From Pseudomonadota bacterium (GTDB taxonomy: Bacteria > Pseudomonadota > Gammaproteobacteria > Xanthomonadales > Rhodanobacteraceae), in contig JAFEDX010000005.1 in assembly GCA_018241365.1 (NCBI GenBank), forward strand, positions 1 through 45,584: DNA of 45,584 nucleotides, written 5' to 3'. Each line of letters starts with the position of its first letter. Within the stretch, counting starts at the first letter, position 1. The translations under genes were made by a program, and so were the position numbers. The notes under the pieces are model-generated. The model ran no database searches and had not been told where the DNA came from. It was given only the letters and a program-made list of their open reading frames with translations. This document shows, in pieces, positions 3,107 to 43,590 of this stretch.

Positions 3107-4525
3107 ATGCTGCGCCGGGCTGCGATCGTTTTGCTGCTGGGCATGGGCGTGACCTTCGCGGCCGCCGCCCAAAGCCCCGGTGCGCAGGACTGGCCGATGT
3201 TCGGCGGCAACGTCGAAAGCAGCAGCGCCAATCCCGCGCCCGCCGGCATCACCGCCGCCAACCTCGGCAAGCTGGTACTGCGCAAGGTCGAGCTGCCCGG
3301 CACCGTCGATGCAAGCGCGATCTACCTGCACGCCGTCGACATCCGCGGCACGCGGCACGACGCCATCTTCGTCACCACCACCTACGGCAAGACGCTGGCA
3401 ATCGACGCCGACAGCGGTGCGATCCTGTGGGACTACACGCCGGCCAGTTACGCCGGCCTCGCCGGCAGCTACCGGATTACCAACTCCACCCCGGTGGCCG
3501 ATCCCGACCGGCAATTCCTCTACGCCGCTTCGCCCGACGGTTTCATCCAGAAGTTGGCCATCAGCGACGGCCACGTGGTCTGGCGCACCGCCATCACCCG
3601 GCTGCCCGAGCGCGAGAAGATGGATTCGCCGCTGAAATTCTTCCGCGGCCACGTGATCGCGGTGACCGCGGGCTACATCGGCGACCAGCCGCCGTACCAG
3701 GGCCACGTCGCGATCCTCGACGGCCAGTCCGGCAAGCTGCTGCACGTATGGAACTCGCTGTGCAGCGATCGCACCGGATTGATGTACCCCAGTTCCTGCC
3801 GGGAAAGCGATTCCGCGATCTGGGGACGCGCGGGCGCGGTGATCGATCCCGCAAGCGGCGACATCTTCATCGCCACCGGCAACGCCGACTGGAACGGCAA
3901 GACCCACTGGGGCGACGCGGTGATCGAACTCGATGCCGACGCCACGAAAATGCTCGGCAATTACACCCCGACGAATACCGATTTCCTCAACGAGCACGAC
4001 CTCGACCTGGGTTCGACTTCACCGGTGCTGCTGGGCGGCGACCTGATCGCGCAGGGCGGCAAGGACGGCAAGCTGCGCCTGCTGAGCCGCAAGGCCATCG
4101 CCGGCAGCGCACCGCATCGGGGCGGCGAATTGCAAATCGTCGACACGCCCGATCGCGACAAGCTGTTCACGCAGCCGGCAACGTGGCAGCACGCCGGCCA
4201 GACCTGGCTGTTCCTCGCCGACAACCACGGCACCGCGGCCTGGCAACTGGCGGACGGCAAGCTGCGGAAGCAGTGGGGCAATGACACCAGCGGCACCAGT
4301 CCGTTCGAGGCCGACGGCCTGCTGTTCGTGTACGCGCGCGAAGGCGGATTGAACGTGTACGACGCGGCTTCCGGCAAGCGCATCGCAACGCTGCCGTCCG
4401 GCCCCGGCCACTGGAACAGCCCGATCGTGGCGGCGGGCCGGATCATCCTGCCCGAAGGCAACGCCAACGACCACGCGACACACGGCGTGCTGGACATCTG
4501 GAGCCTGCCGCGCGGCGCGCCCTGA
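3107..4525 (+). CDS. Exported PQQ-type beta-propeller repeat protein
   Basis: This is a 472-residue protein with a signal peptide (MLRRAAIVLLLGMGVTFAAAAQ, cleavage likely after AAA/AQ), so it should be periplasmic. The mature part has repeated propeller-blade motifs: KTLAIDADSGAILWDY, GFIQKLAISDGHVVWR, VAILDGQSGKLLHVW and LNVYDAASGKRIATL. These resemble the PQQ/quinoprotein dehydrogenase repeat. A quinoprotein alcohol dehydrogenase would normally be longer, with a Cys-Cys active-site disulfide. Here the only cysteines are the pair in NSLCSDRTGLMYPSSC, so enzyme activity is uncertain and a structural or binding propeller is equally likely. It stands alone, convergent with the next gene, with only 21 bp between stops. 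Confidence 0.8.
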   Translation: MLRRAAIVLLLGMGVTFAAAAQSPGAQDWPMFGGNVESSSANPAPAGITAANLGKLVLRKVELPGTVDASAIYLHAVDIRGTRHDAIFVTTTYGKTLAIDADSGAILWDYTPASYAGLAGSYRITNSTPVADPDRQFLYAASPDGFIQKLAISDGHVVWRTAITRLPEREKMDSPLKFFRGHVIAVTAGYIGDQPPYQGHVAILDGQSGKLLHVWNSLCSDRTGLMYPSSCRESDSAIWGRAGAVIDPASGDIFIATGNADWNGKTHWGDAVIELDADATKMLGNYTPTNTDFLNEHDLDLGSTSPVLLGGDLIAQGGKDGKLRLLSRKAIAGSAPHRGGELQIVDTPDRDKLFTQPATWQHAGQTWLFLADNHGTAAWQLADGKLRKQWGNDTSGTSPFEADGLLFVYAREGGLNVYDAASGKRIATLPSGPGHWNSPIVAAGRIILPEGNANDHATHGVLDIWSLPRGAP

Positions 4526-4546
4526 CGCGTGACGCGCCGATGCCGT

Positions 4547-5371
4547 CTACGCCACGTAACCGCCCGCGAAACCGCGCACCGGGTCGCCATAGATGTCGAC
4601 GAGTTGCTGCGCGGGCGCCCAGGTCTGCATGAACGCCGACACCTGCGCCGGGCTGCCGACCAGGCAGCCGATCTTGGTGCGGCCATCGCGCGCGACCACC
4701 GACGACAGGCAACAAGATCCTTCGCGTGCCGCCGCCATCAACAACTCGCGGACCGGCGTGGCGCGCATGTCCGCCGCGTAGATATCGTTCGCCAGCGCCA
4801 CACGCGGTGCCTGCCGCAACACTGCGCGTGCGGACTCCACGTCACGCATCACCTTTTCTTCGGAACGCCGCTCGAACGCGGCGCGCGACGCCACGTGCCA
4901 CGCAAGCAGGCGATCCGGATCGACCCCGGGACACTCGCCGCGATACGCGGCGCCGAGGCAGTGGTCGGCCGCCGCGACCATGCGCATCTCCGACGTCACG
5001 CTGATTTCGCCCACAACGCCATTCACCAACACCGTGACAGTCTGGCCAATGCTGGATGCCTGCCAATACTCGGCGGGCGGACGGCCGTAGCCGGGATCGC
5101 CGGGATAGTGGTGGTCGATCCTTGTGGCACCCGCGGGCGCGTCACCGACGCATTCCACCAGGAACACCTTGCCGCCGCGTTGCCGGACGGCGAGGGCCGC
5201 GGACGGCGCTTCCGCCTTGTAGGCGTTGGCCGGATACACGCGCTTGCCATCGACCATCGCCGGCACGCACGGCACGCCGCGTTCCGCCAGCAGGCGTTCG
5301 ATCGCGTGCATTTCGGGATCGGCCGCGCCCAGCACGAACAGCATATCGCCACGCGTCGGCACCACGTTCAT
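4547..5371 (-). CDS. DHH-like conserved protein of unknown function
   Basis: This is a 274-residue protein starting MNVVPTRGDM; an internal Met at 5344 (MLFVLGAADPEM) is an alternative start. The sequence contains RIDHHYPGDPGYGRPPAEY, with an Asp-His-His motif as in DHH phosphoesterases, then ASSIGQ, and later an AADHCLGAAYRGECPGVDP block that looks like a second metal or substrate site. I infer a cytoplasmic hydrolase of the DHH superfamily or a relative. The family's usual DHHA1 GGGH signature is not seen, so the function is open. It lies 36 bp downstream of the aminotransferase gene and probably shares its transcript. No reaction is assigned. Confidence 0.65.
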   Translation of the reverse strand: MNVVPTRGDMLFVLGAADPEMHAIERLLAERGVPCVPAMVDGKRVYPANAYKAEAPSAALAVRQRGGKVFLVECVGDAPAGATRIDHHYPGDPGYGRPPAEYWQASSIGQTVTVLVNGVVGEISVTSEMRMVAAADHCLGAAYRGECPGVDPDRLLAWHVASRAAFERRSEEKVMRDVESARAVLRQAPRVALANDIYAADMRATPVRELLMAAAREGSCCLSSVVARDGRTKIGCLVGSPAQVSAFMQTWAPAQQLVDIYGDPVRGFAGGYVA

Positions 5372-20388: not shown

Positions 20389-20680
20389 AGGGTCACTCGG
20401 GACGATCATTTTGGACACAAGCTCGTAGGACGCCAATCGCCGGAACGAGGTGTCACGACGTTAAGCGAACGATGCATCGGCCGGAGGCCTCGCAACGCCC
20501 AACTTCCTTCTTGAGAAATCCCGGTACAGCACGAGTTCAAGACTGGCTGATCCAAAAGCTGCCACTCGCCACTGGCTGCAGAGGGCCGCAATCCACCATC
20601 TGAGCATCGTCTCGCACGGTGAGACACGCCGCTGACACGGTGCGCCAATGAACTTGGCGATCCATCTTCCCTACGACCGG
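20389..20680. other. Non-coding patch after HEPN-like gene
   Basis: About 290 bp without a credible gene, of lower GC than its surroundings. A GTCTC/GAGAC inverted repeat near 20609-20625 is the only structure seen. It is probably decayed DNA between the HEPN-like gene and the recD remnant. Confidence 0.4.
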
Positions 20681-20797
20681 CGCGCACGCAGTGGGGTCAC
20701 CCTGTACACCACACCGGAAGCCTTGCGCATCGACATGGGTCGGTGCACGCTGCGTAGGATCGGGCTTGACAATCGCCTGCGTGAAGCCGCGTTCGCG
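20681..20797 (+). pseudogene. Decayed second copy of the recD 3' end
   Basis: Nucleotides 20681-20797 align base for base with recD 18595-18711 (offset 2086), with an exactly matching run around 20694-20718. Translated in the same frame, RARSGVTLYTTPEALR and GRCTLRR correspond to RARSAVTLYTTPEILR and GRRTLRM of RecD; I count 25 identities in 36 residues. The copy lacks every helicase motif and any start, so it is a fragment. It could be a duplication remnant or the tail of an incoming recD-like gene. The homology is seen directly; the origin is inferred. Confidence 0.8.
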
Positions 20798-20846
20798 CCT
20801 GCTTCAGTCTCCCATCCATCATTCGACACCACCTGACAAAAACCTT

Positions 20847-20949
20847 CGTCATTCCGGGGCCACACGAAGCGTGGAACCCGGAATCCGGCTCTTGGTCTGA
20901 CATCAACAGCTGGATTCCGGATCGCTGCTCCGCAGCGTCCGGAATGACG
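20847..20949. repeat. CGTCATTCCGG palindromic repeat (MITE/REP-like)
   Basis: CGTCATTCCGG (20847-20857) is matched by CCGGAATGACG (20939-20949), perfect 11-bp terminal inverted repeats around an 80-bp core that also carries GGAATCCGG/CTGGATTCCGG sub-repeats. The right end contains the first in-frame ATG of lhr (20944). Such GTCATTCCGG elements are widespread in proteobacterial intergenic DNA. The gene-proximal position suggests it also forms part of the lhr leader. Confidence 0.75.
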
Positions 20950-20967
20950 AACAAACCTCCATACGCA

Positions 20968-23900
20968 ATGCCGATGCAAGACTTCCACCCCGCCGTCGCC
21001 GCCTGGTTCGCGTCGGCGTTTCCCGCGCCGACGCCGGCGCAGTCGCAGGCGTGGCCGGCAATCCGCGCCGGCCGCAACGTGCTGGTCGCGGCACCCACGG
21101 GTTCGGGCAAGACGCTGGCGGCCTTCCTCGCCGCGCTCGACGAGCTGGTATGCGAAGGCACCGCGGGAACGCTCGCCGATGAAACCACCGTCGTCTATGT
21201 GTCGCCGCTGAAGGCTCTGTCCAACGACGTGCGCATCAACCTGGAAGTGCCGATCGAAGGTATCCGCGCACAACTGGAAAAAATCGGCCTGCCGGATGTC
21301 GAAATCCGCACCGCGGTGCGCACCGGCGACACCCCGCAGGCCGAGCGCAACGCGATGCGCAAGCGTCCGCCGCACATCGTGGTGACGACGCCGGAATCGC
21401 TGTACATCCTGATGGGCTCGGACTCCGGTCGGGCGATGTTGCAGACCACGCGCACGGTGATCGTGGACGAGATCCACGCGCTGGTGCAGAGCAAGCGCGG
21501 CAGCCATCTCGCGCTGACGCTGGAACGGCTGGATGCGCTGTGCGGTCGGCGCTGCACCCGCATCGGCCTGTCGGCGACGCAGAAGCCCATCGGGGAAGTC
21601 GCTCGTTTCCTGGTCGGCGCACCTTCTTTCCTTTTCCCTTCCGAAGAAGGTGTCCCGAGGATTGCGAACGCAAGTCTCGGGGCGGATGAGGGTACGGGTT
21701 CGACCGAACCACTCGCAGGCTCCGAACCCTCACCCCAGCGCTGCGCGCTCGGCGCTTCGCGCCGCCTCTCCCGGAGGGAGAGGGGTTCGACGGATGAGGG
21801 TTCGGCCTCGCACATACCTTCTGCAAGTTCCGGACCCTCACCCCAGCCCCTCTCCCGAGGGGAGAGGGGTTCACAGCAGTGCACCATCATTGACGCCGGC
21901 CACCAGCGCGCGCGCGACCTCGCGATCGAACTCACCAACGTGCCGCTGCAGCCCGTGATGAGCAACGACGCGTGGGGGCTGGTGTACGACCGCCTCGCGG
22001 AATTGATCGAGCAGCACCGCACCACGCTGGTGTTCAGCAACACCCGGCGTGGCGTCGAGCGCACGACGCGACATCTCGCCGAACGGCTGGGCAAGGACGC
22101 GGTGGCTGCGCACCACGGCAGCCTGTCGAAGGAGAAACGCCTCGACGCCGAGCAGCGCCTCAAATCCGGCCAGTTGCGCGCGCTGGTCGCGACGGCGTCG
22201 CTGGAGCTCGGCATCGACATCGGCGAAGTGGACCTGGTATGCCAGCTGTCCTCGCCACGTTCCATCGCGGCGTTCCTGCAGCGCGCCGGGCGCGCCGGAC
22301 ACGCGGTCGATGGCATTTCCAAGGCGCGGCTGTTCCCGACCTCGCGCGACGACCTCGCCGAATGCGTGGCGCTGCTCGACAGCGTGCGCCGCGGCGAGCT
22401 CGACACCTTGCGCATGCCGCCCGCACCGCTGGATGTGCTGGCGCAGCAGATCGTGGCGGAAGTCGCCTGCGGCGAATGCGACGAGGTCGCGCTGTTCGAG
22501 ACGTTTCGGCGCGCGTATCCGTACCGGCATCTCACGCGCGAAACTTTCACCGAAGTCGCGCGGATGCTGGCCGAAGGCTACGCGACCCGGCGCGGCATCC
22601 GCGCCGCGCACCTGCACCGCGATGCAGTGAACGGCAAGCTGCGCGCGCGCCGCGGCGCGCGCATTACTGCGCTCACTTCCGGCGGCGCGATCCCGGACAC
22701 CGCCGATTACGACGTGGTGCTGGAACCGCAATCGATGCGGGTCGGCAGCGTCAACGAGGATTTCGCGGTCGAGTCGATGGCCGGCGACATCTTCCAGCTC
22801 GGCAACCAGTCCTACCGCATCCTCAAGATCGAGCGCGGCCGGATGCGCGTGGAGGACGCGCACGGCGCGCCGCCGTCGATTCCATTCTGGCTCGGCGAGG
22901 CGCCCGGGCGCAGCGACGAATTGTCGATCGCGGTGTCGCGGTTGCGTGAGGAAATTGCAGCGCGGCTCGATTTCCCCTCTCCCTCCGGGAGAGGGCGCCC
23001 TGAAAGGGCGGGTGAGGGTTCGGCCCAGAGCGAACGTTCAATTGATTCCGAACCCTCACCCCCAACCCCTCTCCCGGAGGGAGAGGGGGGCAAAACCGCG
23101 TTGTCGTGGTTGGTGGATGAAGTCGGCATCGGCGAGTCAGCCGCGCGGCAACTGGTCGACTACTACGCCACCGCGCAGGTCGAACTCGGCCTGCTGCCGA
23201 CGCAAGCGACGCTGGCGATGGAGCGCTTCTTCGATGAAGCCGGCGGCATGCAGCTGGTGATCCACTCGCCGCTCGGCAGCCGCCTGAACCGCGCGTGGGG
23301 GCTCGCGCTGCGCAAGCGCTTTTGCCGCAGCTTCAACTTCGAGTTGCAGGCCACGGCCACCGAAGATGCGATCGTGCTGTCGCTCTCGACCAGCCACAGC
23401 TTTCCGCTGGACGAAGTCGCGCGCTACCTGCACTCCAATTCGGTGCACGACGTGTTGACGCAGGCGCTGCTGGACGCGCCAATGTTCGCGCTGCGCTTCC
23501 GCTGGAATGCCGCGTCCGCGCTGGCGCTGCCGCGCTTCGCCGGCGGTGCGAAGGTGCCTCCGCAGCTGCAGCGGATGAAATCCGAAGACCTGCTGGCCAC
23601 GGTCTTTCCCGACCAGGTGGCCTGCCTTGAGAACATAGTGGGCGAGCGCAGGATTCCCGATCATCCGCTGGTGGCGCAGACGCTGCACGATTGCCTCAAC
23701 GAAGCGATGGACCTCGAAGGACTGACCGCGCTGCTGCGCCGACTGGAAAGCGGCGAAGTGCGGATCATTGCCCGCGACCTGACCGCGCCATCGGCGCTGG
23801 CCGCCGAAATCCTCGGCGCCAAGCCGTACGCCTTCCTCGACGGCGGTGAGCTGCAGGAGCGCCGTACGCAGGCTGTGTCCGCGCGTGAAGCGAATGATCC

Positions 23901-25872
23901 GCAAAGCGTGCGGGATCTCGGTCGGCTGGATATGGAGGCCATCGACGCGGTACGCGAAGAAGCCTGGCCCGCACCGCGCGACGCCGACGAGATGCACGAG
24001 GCGCTGTTGCTGCTGGGGGCTGTATGCGCCAGCGACCTTGCGCGCAATTCCGAATGGCAAAGCTGGCTCGACGAACTGGCTACAGCACGCCGAGCTGCGC
24101 TTCTTCTCCCCTCTCCCTCCGGGAGAGGGGCGGGGGTGAGGGTTCGAGTCCATGGCGAATCTCCATGCGAACCCGGACCCTCACCCGCCGCTGCGCGGCC
24201 CCCTCTCCCGGAGGGAGAGGGGTTAATGCTTTGGGTCCCCGCCGAAACGTTGCCGATGTGGCAGGTCATCCATCCCGACGCGCGCATGCAGCCATTGATC
24301 GACGCACCCGCCGAATTCGCGGCGCGCGCATGGACGCGCGACGATGCGCTGCCGGAACTGCTGCGTGCGCGGCTGGGCTGCGCGGGCGTCACCGATGCCG
24401 CTGCCTTGGCCAGCACATTCGCGGTTCCACGCAGCGATATCGAGATCGCGCTGGCAAAACTTGAACGCGAAGGCACCGCCATGCGCGGCCGCTTCACCGG
24501 ATGCACCTCCGCAGAATCGGCACAGGGAGGTGCCGACGGATCGGTTGATTCGACGACCGATCCGGAGAGCGTGGCGTGGCTTGGCCGCGACCGCTCGCCC
24601 GGCGCTTGCGGCAGGATGCCCAATGCGCCGGTACAAGAAGAACAATGGTGCGAGCGTTCGCTGCTCGCACGCATCCACCGCCGCACCCTGCAACGCCTGC
24701 GCCGCGAGATCGAGCCAGTGGCGCCGCGGGATTTCATGCGCTTCCTGCTGGATTGGCAACACGTCGCTCCGGATGCGCAGTTGCGCGGGCCCGACGCGCT
24801 GGCGGCGGTATTGGCGCAACTGGAAGGTTTCGAGGCAGCGGCAGGCGCGTGGGAATCGCAACTGCTGCCGGCGCGCATGCGTGATTACGACATCGCCTGG
24901 CTGGACGCGCTGTGCGGCGCCGGACGCATCGCATGGACGCGTTTGCGCGCCGCGAGCGGCGGCACGCACGCCGCACCCGTGCGCGCGTCGCCAATCGTCT
25001 TGCTGCCGCGTGCGCACCTGCCAACATGGAACGCCGTGGCCGCGCAAGCCGACACCGCAACGCCGGGAGTGTCATCGCGTGCGCAGGCCGTCATCGATTT
25101 TCTCGCGCAGCGCGGTGCTTCGTTTTTCGGTGAAATCGCCGACGACACGCACCTGCTGAAAGTGGAACTGGTAGACGCGTTGGGCGAGTTGGTCGGCGCC
25201 GGCCTGGTCGGTGCGGACAGCTTCGCCGGGTTGCGCGCGCTGTTGCAGCCGGCGGCGCAACGCAACCACGCTCGTCATCGGCGGCTGGCGCGGCACATGT
25301 TCAGCGGGATCGAGGATGCCGGGCGCTGGAGCCTGGTGCGGAACGCCGCAATGCACTCGCACGCTTCCCCTCACCCCGGCCCTCTCCCGCAAGCGGGAGA
25401 GGGAGAGAACCTTGAACACATCGCGCACGTGCTGCTGCGCCGCTGGGGCGTGGTGTTCTGGAAACTGCTTGAGCGTGAAGCGGCATGGCTGCCGCCGTGG
25501 CGGGAGTTGCGGCGCGTGTACCAGCGACTGGAAGCACGCGGCGAAATCCGCGGTGGCCGCTTCGTGGAAGGCGTCGTGGGCGAGCAATTCGCGCTGCCGG
25601 AAGCCGTCGAGGCGCTACGCCGCGTGGGCAAGCGTGCATACGACGGCGTACCGGTCACGATCAGCGGAGCCGATCCCCTGAACCTGATCGGCAACATCCT
25701 GCCCGGGACCAGGGTGCCCGCACGGGCGGGCTCGCGCATCACCTGCCGCGACGGCGTACCGGTCGCGACGCGCATCGCGGGCGAGGTTGCGTTGCTGGAA
25801 GCCTTGTCGCCGACCGACGAGCGCGCGATACGCGCTGCGTTGCGGCAGCCGGAAGCAACCGTGTCCGGGTGA
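20968..25872 (+). CDS. lhr: Lhr-type large ATP-dependent DNA helicase with in-frame repeat insertions
   Basis: The product is about 1634 residues from ATG 20968 (ATGs at 20944 and 20974 are alternatives; 20944 lies inside a repeat). Lhr is a 3'-5' SF2 helicase of the DNA-damage response. Motifs are Walker A APTGSGKT (Lys48), VVDEIHAL-type box VDEIHAL (Asp167), [22 protein letters not shown] and QRAGRAGH (Gln438). The Lhr-specific winged-helix and C-terminal domains follow. Usual length is about 1500; the excess is explained by translated palindromic repeats at 21630-21875, 22974-23090, 24106-24223 and 25364-25406, plus another insert near 24505-24640. The frame stays open throughout, so insertions appear tolerated. 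Whether the helicase is still active is not known. It is convergent with the next gene. Confidence 0.93.
21630..21875. repeat. Palindromic element copy A, inside lhr (double unit)
   Basis: Two adjoining units with the arms CTCTCCCGGAGGGAGAG and CTCTCCCGAGGGGAGAG and the flanking GGATGAGGGT / ACCCTCACCCC blocks. It encodes about 82 extra residues (roughly 222-303 of Lhr) containing PSEEG, SRRERG and PLSRGERG. It sits between FLVG and TIIDAG, where other Lhr proteins have only a short loop. Confidence 0.85.
22974..23090. repeat. Palindromic element copy B, inside lhr
   Basis: It begins CCCCTCTCCCTCCGGGAGAG and ends CTCTCCCGGAGGGAGAGGGG, with GGGTGAGGGTTCG and CGAACCCTCACCC facing each other inside: a complete unit of 117 bp (39 codons). 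It is read as SPSGRG ... PLPEGEG in Lhr. Confidence 0.88.
24106..24223. repeat. Palindromic element copy C, inside lhr
   Basis: A complete unit with the same ends and inner GGGTGAGGGTTCG / GGACCCTCACCC blocks. It is read as [10 protein letters not shown] ... PPLPEGEG in Lhr. It lies in the C-terminal half, in a region that is variable between Lhr proteins. Confidence 0.88.
24505..24640. repeat. Unrelated in-frame insert in lhr with a perfect inverted repeat
   Basis: About 45 extra codons between MRGRFTG and [15 protein letters not shown], where related proteins have a short linker. It contains GATCGGT/ACCGATC (24539-24545, 24556-24562) as a perfect 7-bp stem. The sequence does not resemble the CCCTCTCCC family. 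It may be a second kind of element or a natural loop expansion. Confidence 0.4.
25364..25406. repeat. Palindromic element copy D, half unit, inside lhr
   Basis: CCCCTCACCCCGGCCCTCTC joined to CCGCAAGCGGGAGAGGGAGAG: only one arm of the element, read as [14 protein letters not shown]. The stem CTCTCCCGCAAGCGGGAGAG is intact. Confidence 0.8.
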
Positions 25873-25891
25873 ACGTGGCTGGACCCGTTCA
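25870..25891. terminator. Small hairpin at convergent lhr end
   Basis: TGAACG (25870-25875, including the lhr stop) pairs with CGTTCA (25886-25891). The convergent gene's stop follows within two bases. It is short and lacks a T-run, so it is a weak candidate for a bidirectional terminator. Confidence 0.25.
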
Positions 25892-25892
25892 G

Positions 25893-27620
25893 TCAGTCGT
25901 CCAGCAATGAAGGCATGCGCTGGAACAGCACGCTTTCCTTCGCATCCGAACAATCGCTCGACACGCTGATGCGTGCCATTGCATTCGAATAGAGCTGGAA
26001 CCAGTCGGGTCCGCGCGGGTGTTGCGCATCTTCGGACGGGATCTGGGAGCGGCTCCACAATTGGTGCGTCCAGGGAAATTCGTGCTTGATCTCCTGACCG
26101 AACATCAACGGCAACACGAGTTTTTGCCCGAATCCCATCGTCGGCAGCTTGGCCCGGGGCTGGGCGTACAACTCGCCGCGCACCTGCTGGGTGGGTACGT
26201 CCTTGGTGATCGCGGGGGTCGGCCCGTAGACCGTGCCACCCGGGAACTGGTTGGTGAACTCGATCTTGCCGGAAACGTGGCACGCGCCCGTACCCGCGTC
26301 GGCAAGGTGCCGCAGGCGCACGATTTCCACGCGCGCCATCGGCGGGATGTCGATGGAATGGGGCGCGGGCTTGGTGATCACTCCGTCCGGCAGGCACAAC
26401 TTTTCGCTACCGTGTGCGTGCGCCTCGGCGTCGCCGACGCATCCGGGCGAAAAAGCGGTGGACTTGAGCGTGTCGCCTGCGGCAACGAGCCCCTTGCGCA
26501 GCAGGTCCTGGCAACCAGCGGTGCACGGAATCCCGGTTTGCGAAGCCACCGCGTCCGCAGCGAACTGCACGGCGCCATCGATGCCCTGGTCCACGAGTTG
26601 GTTGAAATTGGGCAGGGACGGCGGGACGCCGAGCGCCAGCATGCCAGCGTCGGCGGCGGCGTTGGCGATCGTGCGGCAGGCGCTGCCCGCGCCCGCCCCA
26701 GCGACGCCGATCAAGTCGCAAGCGTGGGTGACGTCCAGGATCGTGTTCACCACGGCGGCTTTCAGGCCGTTGTAGGCGCCGGCGACCCAATCGAAGGCGC
26801 TGGTGATGCCGTCGGCGGCCCACGTGATGAAATCGCCGACGGAGTCGATGTGGCGACCCTCGCCGCGGTACGCTTTCGGACAAATCTGCGCGCCCACGGG
26901 AAACCGGGTTTGGAGCGAGCCAAAGGAACCTGCGGGCGGGCCCGGCTTGTGTCCCGTCACGACCACGCAGCCCCAACGATTGGGATCGGCAAAATCGGGC
27001 GGCGTGAATTCGACCAGCTTGATGGTGTACAGGTTCGGCTTGGGCTTGGCGGCCGTGGACGGCAAGTGCAGGTCCTGTGTTGGCGGGGTTCCGGCGACAT
27101 ACACCCGGATCACGTTCGACGGCCGTCCGGCAAGCACGTTCGCCCCGTTCCCGACCAGCGGCAGGACCCTGACGTAGACGCTGTCCGGGTTGCGGCCCGC
27201 GAGGAGCGACTTGAGGTTTCCCGTGAACATGCCCGCAGTTCCGGAGCCGTCGCCCTGCGCCAGCAGGCCCGACGGCTCCAGGTCTGCGGCCGCACCGCCC
27301 ACGAACGCGGGGAACGGTTGCGCCGCGATCTGCCAGCGCGCGCCGTGCGCACCCGCGATCTTCCCGACGTCCCAGTAAAACGCGTACGCCGCCGTGGCGG
27401 CGCTGGTATCGGCCCGGTAGTCGTCGGTGACAGCCAGATCGCCAACCTTCCGGTACACGGACGCACTCGGCAACAGCCGCAACGGCGTTGCCGGGGCCCG
27501 GATTTCGGTTTGCTTCGCGCCGGTGGGCACGGAGGAAAGGACCGGCGGCGGTGCGGCCAGGGACTCCGCCAGGGCGCCACCGACGAGTACCACGCCAAGC
27601 ACCAAGCGCAGGAGTTGCAT
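25893..27620 (-). CDS. Exported protein of unknown family
   Basis: This 575-residue protein starts MQLLRLVLGVVLVGGALA at ATG 27620 behind a run of G (GGGGGGTGG); a GTG two codons earlier is possible. A Sec signal peptide ends near SLAAPP, so it should be periplasmic, outer-membrane-linked or secreted. The N-terminal third has beta-rich, fibronectin-like stretches (YAFYWDVGKIAGAHGARWQI, NVIRVYVAGTPP). The middle holds a helical, small-residue-rich segment with Cys in THACDLIGVAGAGAGSACRT and PCTAGCQD, and the C-terminus has several further Cys. I recognise no family. It faces lhr with no spacer and lies 98 bp downstream of the M61 peptidase start-side region; no functional link is evident. Confidence 0.75.
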   Translation of the reverse strand: MQLLRLVLGVVLVGGALAESLAAPPPVLSSVPTGAKQTEIRAPATPLRLLPSASVYRKVGDLAVTDDYRADTSAATAAYAFYWDVGKIAGAHGARWQIAAQPFPAFVGGAAADLEPSGLLAQGDGSGTAGMFTGNLKSLLAGRNPDSVYVRVLPLVGNGANVLAGRPSNVIRVYVAGTPPTQDLHLPSTAAKPKPNLYTIKLVEFTPPDFADPNRWGCVVVTGHKPGPPAGSFGSLQTRFPVGAQICPKAYRGEGRHIDSVGDFITWAADGITSAFDWVAGAYNGLKAAVVNTILDVTHACDLIGVAGAGAGSACRTIANAAADAGMLALGVPPSLPNFNQLVDQGIDGAVQFAADAVASQTGIPCTAGCQDLLRKGLVAAGDTLKSTAFSPGCVGDAEAHAHGSEKLCLPDGVITKPAPHSIDIPPMARVEIVRLRHLADAGTGACHVSGKIEFTNQFPGGTVYGPTPAITKDVPTQQVRGELYAQPRAKLPTMGFGQKLVLPLMFGQEIKHEFPWTHQLWSRSQIPSEDAQHPRGPDWFQLYSNAMARISVSSDCSDAKESVLFQRMPSLLDD

Positions 27621-37010: not shown

Positions 37011-37146
37011 CTCCCTTCTCCCGCCGGAAGAAGGGCGGGGATGAGGGTCCGGAATCACGGTCACACCCATGTTTGCCACACGTTCGTCACCCTTCCACCA
37101 GACCGTACCCTCACCTCTGCCCCTCTCCCACAGGGAGAGGGGTTCG
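37011..37146. repeat. Palindromic element copy E, between bioB and bioF
   Basis: It begins CTCCCTTCTCCCGCCGGAAG and ends CCCCTCTCCCACAGGGAGAG, with the inner blocks GGGGATGAGGGT and ACCCTCACC. It is the same family as the elements in lhr. Its right arm (GGAGAGGGG, 37134-37142) stands nine bases before the bioF ATG and appears to be the ribosome-binding site. Confidence 0.85.
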
Positions 37147-43441: not shown

Positions 43442-43590
43442 TCCCCTCTCCCTTCGGGAGAGGGTGCCCCGGAGGGGCGGGTGAGGGTGCGCATTTGCGA
43501 CATGGCAGCGGTTCGTGCGCGAATTCGTCCTGCGCAAGCCCGAACCCTCATCCGGCGCTGCGCGCCACCTTCTCCCGGAGGGAGAAGGTG
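43442..43590. repeat. Palindromic element copy F, between tviB and epimerase
   Basis: It starts TCCCCTCTCCCTTCGGGAGAG and ends TTCTCCCGGAGGGAGAAGG, with GGGTGAGGGTG and GAACCCTCATCC facing inside: a complete element in the 224-bp spacer. It ends 26 bp before the epimerase ATG, which has its own separate GGAGG site. Confidence 0.85.

Follow-up and report, generated by a model that had tools for sequence, protein, structure and literature searches.

Intragenic repeats were first recognised in Rickettsia, and they raise the question of whether their presence in repair genes is accidental or has a cause. The Rickettsia palindromic elements (RPEs; Ogata et al. 2000, 2002), as covered by the review PMC10969869, lie in frame in unrelated genes and encode a conserved peptide. 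Intragenic REPs in repair genes are already in print as well: the main text of Di Nocera et al. 2013 (PMC3733652) describes REPs tagged GTAG or CGTC within ORFs, including many repair genes and some tRNA synthetases, and a repeat at about the same site in recB of two Xanthomonas species. REPINs were reported from extragenic space, in association with RAYT genes (Bertels and Rainey 2011, PMC3116915), and the G/C-rich intrastrand triplex motif (TM, TMECO) of E. coli K-12 MG1655 is said to be always intergenic (Holder et al. 2015, PMC4666352).

In the window, by which we mean the whole stretch of 45,584 nucleotides that was analysed, the DNA-repair helicase gene lhr carries seven CTCTCCC-n-GGGAGAG palindromes, in frame, in four inter-domain loops (S1 to S4), and the same element lies outside predicted genes (37121, 43444). 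This bears out the earlier note, which had claimed that dispersed palindromes are translated in frame at four places in this gene. The features are:

20944..25872, + strand: lhr, ATP-dependent helicase of 1642 aa, ORF open across all inserts
21625..21876, + strand: site S1, residues about 228-311, array of TM units (palindromes 21764 and 21848)
22972..23091, + strand: site S2, residues 677-716, inverted TM doublet (palindromes 22975 and 23067)
24104..24227, + strand: site S3, residues about 1055-1095, inverted TM doublet (palindromes 24109 and 24201)
25365..25406, + strand: site S4, one TM unit, CCCTCACCC followed by CTCTCCC-loop-GGGAGAG (palindrome 25380)
37104..37141, no strand: TM copy outside predicted genes (palindrome 37121), same element as the lhr inserts
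43444..43588, no strand: TM copy outside predicted genes, with a more diverged partner at 43568

Allowing up to two mismatches, the pattern CCCTCTCCCNNNGGGAGAGGG matched nine times in the window, six of these in lhr, and not once in any of 100 dinucleotide shuffles of the window; the seventh lhr palindrome (25380-25403) has a longer loop. The Pfam domains of Lhr follow in the expected order (DEAD, residues 30-214; Helicase_C, 349-453; WH_Lhr, 480-643; DEAD_assoc, 751-953; WH3_Lhr, 1264-1332; WH4_Lhr, 1488-1565), and all four sites lie between them. S1 is located between the two RecA-like domains, where residues 244 to 246 of the solved Lhr chain 5v9x align with a run from 227 to 314 in the window's Lhr; S2 is between WH_Lhr and DEAD_assoc, S3 between DEAD_assoc and WH3_Lhr, and S4 a little ahead of WH4_Lhr. 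Homologue alignment confirmed that these are variable places of Lhr, with some relatives lacking each insert. Compared to the short alleles of homologues (20-28 residues at S1, 18 at S2, 24-29 at S3 and 21-26 at S4), the four inserts together add roughly 155-170 residues, near the 174 estimated before.

Judged by sequence match, the lhr inserts belong to a dispersed palindromic element that corresponds to the TM, with the one-strand pattern CCCTCTCCC-loop-GGGAGAGGG-nn-GGGTGAGGG (identity from Table 1 of PMC4666352). The likeness to TM/TMECO extends from this core to the many copies per genome, 53 exact and 61 with a shorter pattern in the window's genome (G000), and to the inverted pairs. The element differs in that it also has in-frame intragenic copies and that 23 of the 50 oriented copies in G000 are a variant with a longer linker and an extra small hairpin, the other 27 having a short linker. 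It is neither of the tagged types described in the main text of PMC3733652, as an unpaired GTAG or CGTC end tag is absent from the TM units of the window. The scan for further copies inside coding sequences that the earlier note had proposed placed 12 of 50 palindrome clusters of G000 in predicted genes (four in lhr and eight in seven other genes) and 38 outside. In ValS and three lipoyl-domain proteins, the inserts fall between domains, whereas that of PxpB and one of the two in a molybdopterin oxidoreductase lie inside Pfam-matched stretches.

The presence in lhr and seven other, unrelated genes resembles what the review reports for RPEs and occurs, as had been proposed, in an unrelated lineage, the host genome having about 66% GC. 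Set beside the conserved RPE peptide of that review, the reading phase gives a mixed picture. The right-hand unit at S2 and S3 is in the PLPEGEG frame in all 9 exact oriented cases (S2 6/6, S3 3/3), which owes in part to shared ancestry, while exact oriented units at S1 and S4 are found in all three phases (2, 2 and 2 at S1; 3, 1 and 2 at S4).

The two units of S2 and of S3 are mutually inverted, and each doublet can form a single long hairpin, as REPINs do. The doublet is not general, since the window and 34 further stretches of G000 contain 38 single palindromes and 15 neighbouring pairs less than 180 bp apart. Doublet spacing is 84, 92 and 92 bp within lhr and varies outside genes, where it was taken from a one-substitution pattern and may err by a few bases. 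These spacings speak against an element length that is itself a multiple of three and do not support the suggestion that the elements keep a length that preserves the frame. Unlike for REPINs, no tie to a RAYT was found for the TM in G000: both Y1_Tnp matches of this genome are on one contig (C211), on which the oriented TM pattern has no place, and no TM lies beside the RAYT-like genes as far as tested, which speaks against RAYT mobilisation of the TM. Of two loci searched for repeats, L160 (3327 bp) contains no TM palindrome and carries GTAG-type repeats, and L161 yielded no inverted repeats with the parameters applied. The RAYT-like gene of G000 is flanked by GTAG-type repeats, a family other than the TM.

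Among 79 aligned Lhr ORFs (L044 and L094 are not in the alignment; the L094 ORF has one palindrome), 44 of 45 exact palindromes are at S1 to S4. They occur in 23 of the 79 loci, on the Rhodanobacter/MAG side only, and in none of the 16 Pseudomonas, 6 Burkholderiales and 6 Lysobacter/Xanthomonas/Luteimonas/Rehaibacterium rows. Degenerate palindromes with up to two substitutions show the same placement (97 of 100, in 38 loci) and extend to seven Pseudomonas rows and Rehaibacterium, at least three of these (L079, L087, L093) being parts of Pseudomonas REPs. Chance palindromes in GC-rich coding sequence are ruled out by synonymous-codon shuffling: 64 palindromes with at most one substitution were counted in the 79 ORFs, compared to a mean of 0.85 and a maximum of 4 in 20 shuffles. 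At the same threshold, 57 were found in 356,109 bp of lhr and 5 in 805,575 bp of flanking sequence (78 loci). Each of the four sites also has empty alleles, and at S2 the filled L034 and its empty sister L037 differ by 111 bp. The minimum number of filled/empty changes on the Lhr tree is 11 for S1, 13 for S2, 8 for S3 and 8 for S4, counting gains and losses alike.

The same four loops are occupied in other bacteria by unrelated high-copy repeats, namely GTAG-type, CGTC-type and Pseudomonas REPs. In their own genomes, these reach 93, 435, 310, 68 and 117 copies (GTAG), 15 and 80 copies (CGTC), and 53, 54 and 6 copies (Pseudomonas REP), with 0 in L038, whose repeat differs; the counts cover these three families, the CTCCCC type and the S2 repeats of L022 and L038 being outside them. 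The GTAG and CGTC types at lhr are named by their ends, and the family labels on the tree are approximate; by these labels, about a dozen family-by-site combinations fall in four homologous loops in several genera. The main text of PMC3733652 does not contain the word lhr, and several families in four homologous loops across genera were not found in it. Because of the many family-by-site combinations and the empty alleles, lhr allows gain and loss to be measured along with phase and decay, and its insertions are a natural experiment on which places in a protein tolerate inserts.

The earlier note had asked whether lhr is a hot target. Within the genus (11 genomes, 518 palindromes), lhr contains 24 of the palindromes compared to 0.72 expected, a 33-fold excess. 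Near-exact palindromes in the window's family, however, were found in lhr in 4 of 29 genomes, in hrpA in 6 of 30, in aceF in 6 of 30 and in valS in 4 of 30; hrpA was chosen without knowledge of inserts, aceF and valS because G000 has inserts there, and aceF is the weakest control, its ORFs being partly over-extended. Furthermore, hrpA and valS have one recurrently occupied loop each. The enrichment over a coding baseline stands (the baseline genomes G014, G042 and G033 were chosen since they bear inserts), and lhr as the sole target is ruled out; since the other three genes are hit in at least as many family genomes, lhr belongs to a group of receptive genes. These matched controls shift the answer towards protein tolerance and reveal loops in Lhr, HrpA and ValS that accept tens of added residues.

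Taken together, the pattern probably reflects repeated insertion filtered by protein tolerance, with lhr providing four receptive loops. TM copies would enter the DNA widely, most of them persisting between genes. Copies in genes would persist if their total length keeps the frame, if this frame is without TGA, and where a protein loop accepts a Pro/Ser/Gly/Glu-rich peptide. The four Lhr inter-domain loops would then have been filled repeatedly, by the TM on the Rhodanobacter side and elsewhere, including Pseudomonas, by REP families unrelated to it. We infer that insertion is undirected, that filtering occurs as inserts that cannot be tolerated are lost, and that insert-bearing Lhr still works. 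Tolerance alone does not obviously explain why random genes above 800 aa have 0 palindromes in 142.6 kb, compared to 15 in 103.8 kb of lhr and 8 in 108.8 kb of hrpA. Nor does this neutral account so far cover why some shared inserts diverge so little at silent sites and why S2 and S3 favour one frame.

The latter observations would fit a DNA, RNA or peptide role for which the palindromes are kept in lhr, with strong hairpins or triplexes and rare-codon clusters at the domain boundaries slowing transcription or translation and so tuning expression or the co-translational folding of this large multidomain protein. We regard such a role as unlikely. The location of all sites between Pfam domains agrees with it, as do the strong predicted RNA folds of S2 (-93 kcal/mol, z -9.7) and S3 (-98.4 kcal/mol, z -8.6); the fold of S4 has a z of -2.1, and an Rfam search of 20500-26500 gave no structured RNA family at the gathering threshold. 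Rare codons make up 21% of the inserts and 3.5% of 14 other predicted genes of the window (AGA plus AGG, 4.2% and 0.17%). Rare codons and hairpins are, however, an automatic outcome of the element sequence, most copies of which are extragenic, and at any one site many relatives are insert-free. Between the window and L018, whose Lhr shares 87% amino-acid identity over 838 core residues, 0 of 22 fourfold-degenerate sites differ in S2 and 4 of 28 in S3, compared to 30.4% of 444 in the core. Other genome pairs, in contrast, show 18-29% silent divergence at S2, near the core level, and the inserts of L020 and L042 appear decayed. Similarly doubtful is the idea that linker palindromes in large nucleic-acid enzymes are actively maintained, through a hairpin, a triplex, a rare-codon pause or the preferred PLPEGEG frame at domain boundaries. 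If true, it would explain the low silent divergence, the recurring helicases and tRNA synthetases, and the convergence of unrelated families on the same loops.

The excess of palindromes in lhr and the use of identical positions across genera might also be expected if insertion were directed, that is, if a mobilising enzyme preferred sequences or single-stranded stretches at these sites and lhr were its true target. This is quite improbable: unrelated repeat families share the loops, hrpA, valS and aceF carry palindromes in at least as many family genomes, and the positions match domain boundaries, whereas loop sequences differ among genera.

It is very unlikely that the whole pattern stems from a few old, inherited insertions that most lineages have since lost or that moved between species through recombination of lhr segments, even though inheritance certainly accounts for part of it. 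The S3 inserts of the window, L018 and L064 have a common spacer sequence, as do the S2 inserts of the window and L018; L053 and L066 share spacer peptides at S2, yet their sisters are empty. Different families at one site, however, require separate insertions, and TM units of equal orientation are in differing phases at S1, S2 and S4; the many filled/empty changes on the tree point the same way, with the reservation that gain and loss are counted alike. Of the four independent events claimed earlier, independence holds for the sites; the window's own S2 and S3 inserts are inherited, because they are common to related genomes.

An assembly error, a frame-shifted pseudogene or a spurious ORF is extremely improbable despite the draft state of the window's genome (222 contigs), given the open frame over 1642 aa with conserved domains, the identity to L018, and an equal pattern in other genomes, including the single-contig G014.

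The lhr gene of the window contains seven palindromes of the form CTCTCCC-n-GGGAGAG, which are spread over four places (S1 to S4), all four of them between Lhr Pfam domains:

20944-25872: lhr, Lhr helicase of 1642 amino acids (open reading frame and domain matches)
S1, between the RecA-like domains: array with palindromes at 21764 and 21848, 84 bp apart
S2, between WH_Lhr and DEAD_assoc: inverted doublet, palindromes at 22975 and 23067, 92 bp from palindrome to palindrome
S3, between DEAD_assoc and WH3_Lhr: inverted doublet, palindromes at 24109 and 24201, 92 bp from palindrome to palindrome
S4, before WH4_Lhr: single unit, palindrome at 25380

S2 and S3 each fold into one long hairpin (-93.0 kcal/mol, z -9.7, and -98.4 kcal/mol, z -8.6, respectively). 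Nothing in the solved Lhr chain 5v9x corresponds to S1: its residues 244 to 246 lie opposite residues 227 to 314 of the query. Rare codons account for 21% of the inserts compared to 3.5% for 14 other genes predicted in the window.

In sequence, the insert unit corresponds to the intrastrand triplex motif (Holder et al. 2015), for which Table 1 in PMC4666352 gives sequences of the form CCCTCTCCC-loop-GGGAGAGGG-nn-GGGTGAGGG. That paper describes the motif as always intergenic in E. coli MG1655, whereas in the window it is also found inside lhr. Likewise, the REPIN paper (PMC3116915) places inverted palindrome doublets in extragenic space, in contrast to the S2 and S3 doublets. The study of Di Nocera et al. 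2013 (PMC3733652) reports GTAG and CGTC REPs inside genes, many for replication and repair and some for tRNA synthetases, with one common REP site noted, in recB; lhr is absent from its main text. Rickettsia elements are summarised in a review (PMC10969869). Among the matches listed for repeats in lhr, no title described such inserts. According to PMC10953399, E. coli without lhr is viable with mild AZT sensitivity, and its viability is 10-100-fold lower with hydrogen peroxide.

In the genome of the window (3,226,996 bp, 222 contigs), the longer palindrome has 53 exact copies and the shorter one 61. The oriented unit occurs 50 times, in 23 cases with an additional small hairpin in its linker. 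Palindrome copy number differs strongly inside the genus (138 in G006, 6 in G007 and 0 in G009). The genome also has a RAYT-like Y1 transposase gene (contig C211, stretch L160, ~4414-4740); the GTAG-type repeats GTAGGAGCGACCGTGGTCGCGAC around it belong to another family than the lhr element.

We aligned lhr from 78 of 80 loci of named genomes (a motif filter dropped L044 and L094) with that of the window, 79 in total. Relatives without each insert exist, with empty alleles at each of S1 to S4; in the sister loci L034 (filled) and L037 (empty), there is a difference of 111 bp between the S2 alleles. The 79 reading frames contain 45 exact palindromes, of which 44 are at S1-S4. They come from 23 loci, each on the Rhodanobacter/MAG side (23 of 51 rows); the 16 Pseudomonas, 6 Burkholderiales and 6 Lysobacter/Xanthomonas/Luteimonas/Rehaibacterium rows have no exact palindrome. 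When up to two substitutions were allowed, 100 palindromes turned up in 38 of 79 loci, among them 7 Pseudomonas rows and Rehaibacterium; 97 of these palindromes lay at S1-S4 (43, 22, 12 and 20). With at most one substitution, 64 were observed in the 79 frames against a mean of 0.85 in 20 synonymous shuffles, and across 78 loci there were 57 in 356,109 bp of lhr against 5 in 805,575 bp of flanking DNA. S4 of L018 and S1 of L028 contain short tandem arrays of palindrome-derived units (peptides PPHAGEGDERTARVGGG and LPEGEGVKS), and these sequence arrays suggest in-gene duplication. At S1, the close Pseudomonas genes L038 and L074 differ in frame by 105 bp; the extra stretch includes a degenerate palindrome and partly resembles a duplicate of the stretch next to it.

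The same loops also harbor other repeat families. S3 carries a GTAG-type REP or remnant in five Rhodanobacter-like loci (93, 435, 310, 68 and 117 copies in their own genomes, at most one mismatch), and a CGTC-type repeat occurs at S1 of L026 and S3 of L036 (15 and 80 genome copies, at most two mismatches). In three Pseudomonas loci S2 holds a Pseudomonas REP or variant (53, 54 and 6 copies); L038 has a different repeat there and 0 copies of that REP. By approximate labels and reading, at least three families occupy each of S1, S2 and S3, and two occupy S4. On a quick tree, which does not distinguish gain from loss, S1-S4 require at least 11, 13, 8 and 8 filled/empty changes and 17, 14, 11 and 10 family changes.

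The suggestion that lhr is a hot target stood only in part. In the genus, 24 of 518 exact palindromes fall in lhr compared to 0.72 expected (17 of 457 minus the window's own genome), based on the 11 of 16 genomes with an lhr locus examined, some partial; six of these 11 have palindromes in lhr and five do not. Across 31 genomes of the window's family, taken as a matched panel (at most one substitution), lhr, represented by partial genes covering mainly S1-S3, had 15 palindromes in 103.8 kb (29 genomes, 4 of them hit), compared to 8 in 108.8 kb for hrpA (6 of 30), 11 in 65.1 kb for aceF (6 of 30) and 6 in 96.2 kb for valS (4 of 30). Since two genomes of the window's genus supply 11 of the 15, and given these per-genome counts, lhr takes heavier hits in this genus, not more frequent ones across the family. 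As a baseline, 60 random stretches of 20 kb from three genomes had 6 palindromes within 976 kb of predicted genes (those hit encode the glycyl-tRNA synthetase beta subunit, dihydrolipoyl dehydrogenase, a DUF3348 protein and a UPF0176 protein), 27 elsewhere and not one in the 142.6 kb belonging to genes longer than 800 amino acids. Over this baseline, enrichment was ~24-fold for lhr, 12-fold for hrpA, 10-fold for valS and 27-fold for aceF. At up to two substitutions, a single hrpA loop has 8 of 13 palindromes (6 genomes), and a valS stretch of a few anchors (435-440) has 8 of 11 (5 of 27 aligned genomes). Thus lhr, with its four recurrent loops, is not the only gene to have them.

Beyond lhr, the two palindromes of a doublet are 74 and 101 bp apart within genes and 54-162 bp apart elsewhere. 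We ascribe the preserved frame to selection on the gene. Among exact, oriented units, the PLPEGEG frame picked out in the earlier note proved to be the sole right-hand phase at S2 (6/6) and S3 (3/3); the left-hand unit at S2 uses two phases (2 and 3), and right-hand units use all three at S1 (2, 2, 2) and S4 (3, 1, 2). Shared ancestry or a better-tolerated peptide may account for this bias at S2 and S3. Between the window and L018, fourfold sites of shared inserts differ at 0 of 22 (S2) and 4 of 28 (S3), compared to 30.4% of 444 core sites. Five other pairs differ by 8-17% at S3 against 27-31% in the core. This low silent divergence, seen in copies picked for being recognisable, is not uniform, because the other five pairs at S2 differ by 18-29% (11-14 sites each); renewal, gene conversion or selection are possible causes. 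Decayed inserts seem to be present in L020 and L042.

In the window and 34 further stretches of its genome, chosen around 50 of the 53 exact-palindrome places and all 50 oriented-unit places (degenerate copies elsewhere fall outside this count), 12 of 50 palindrome clusters lie inside predicted genes, four in lhr and eight in seven others:

2-oxoacid dehydrogenase acyltransferase: one cluster
dihydrolipoyl dehydrogenase: one cluster
pyruvate dehydrogenase acetyltransferase: one cluster
valyl-tRNA synthetase (ValS): one cluster
3-dehydroquinate synthase: one cluster
5-oxoprolinase subunit PxpB: one cluster
molybdopterin oxidoreductase: two clusters

The inserts of the three lipoyl-domain proteins and of ValS lie between domains. 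The PxpB insert and one of the two molybdopterin oxidoreductase inserts lie inside a domain-matched stretch. In the three lipoyl-domain proteins, which belong to dehydrogenase complexes, the element sits in linkers (L134:2507-5783, L127:3404-4774). In valS (L139:3068-5971) it separates, in frame, the catalytic domain from the anticodon-binding domain, and valS of other genera has palindromes at about the same place.
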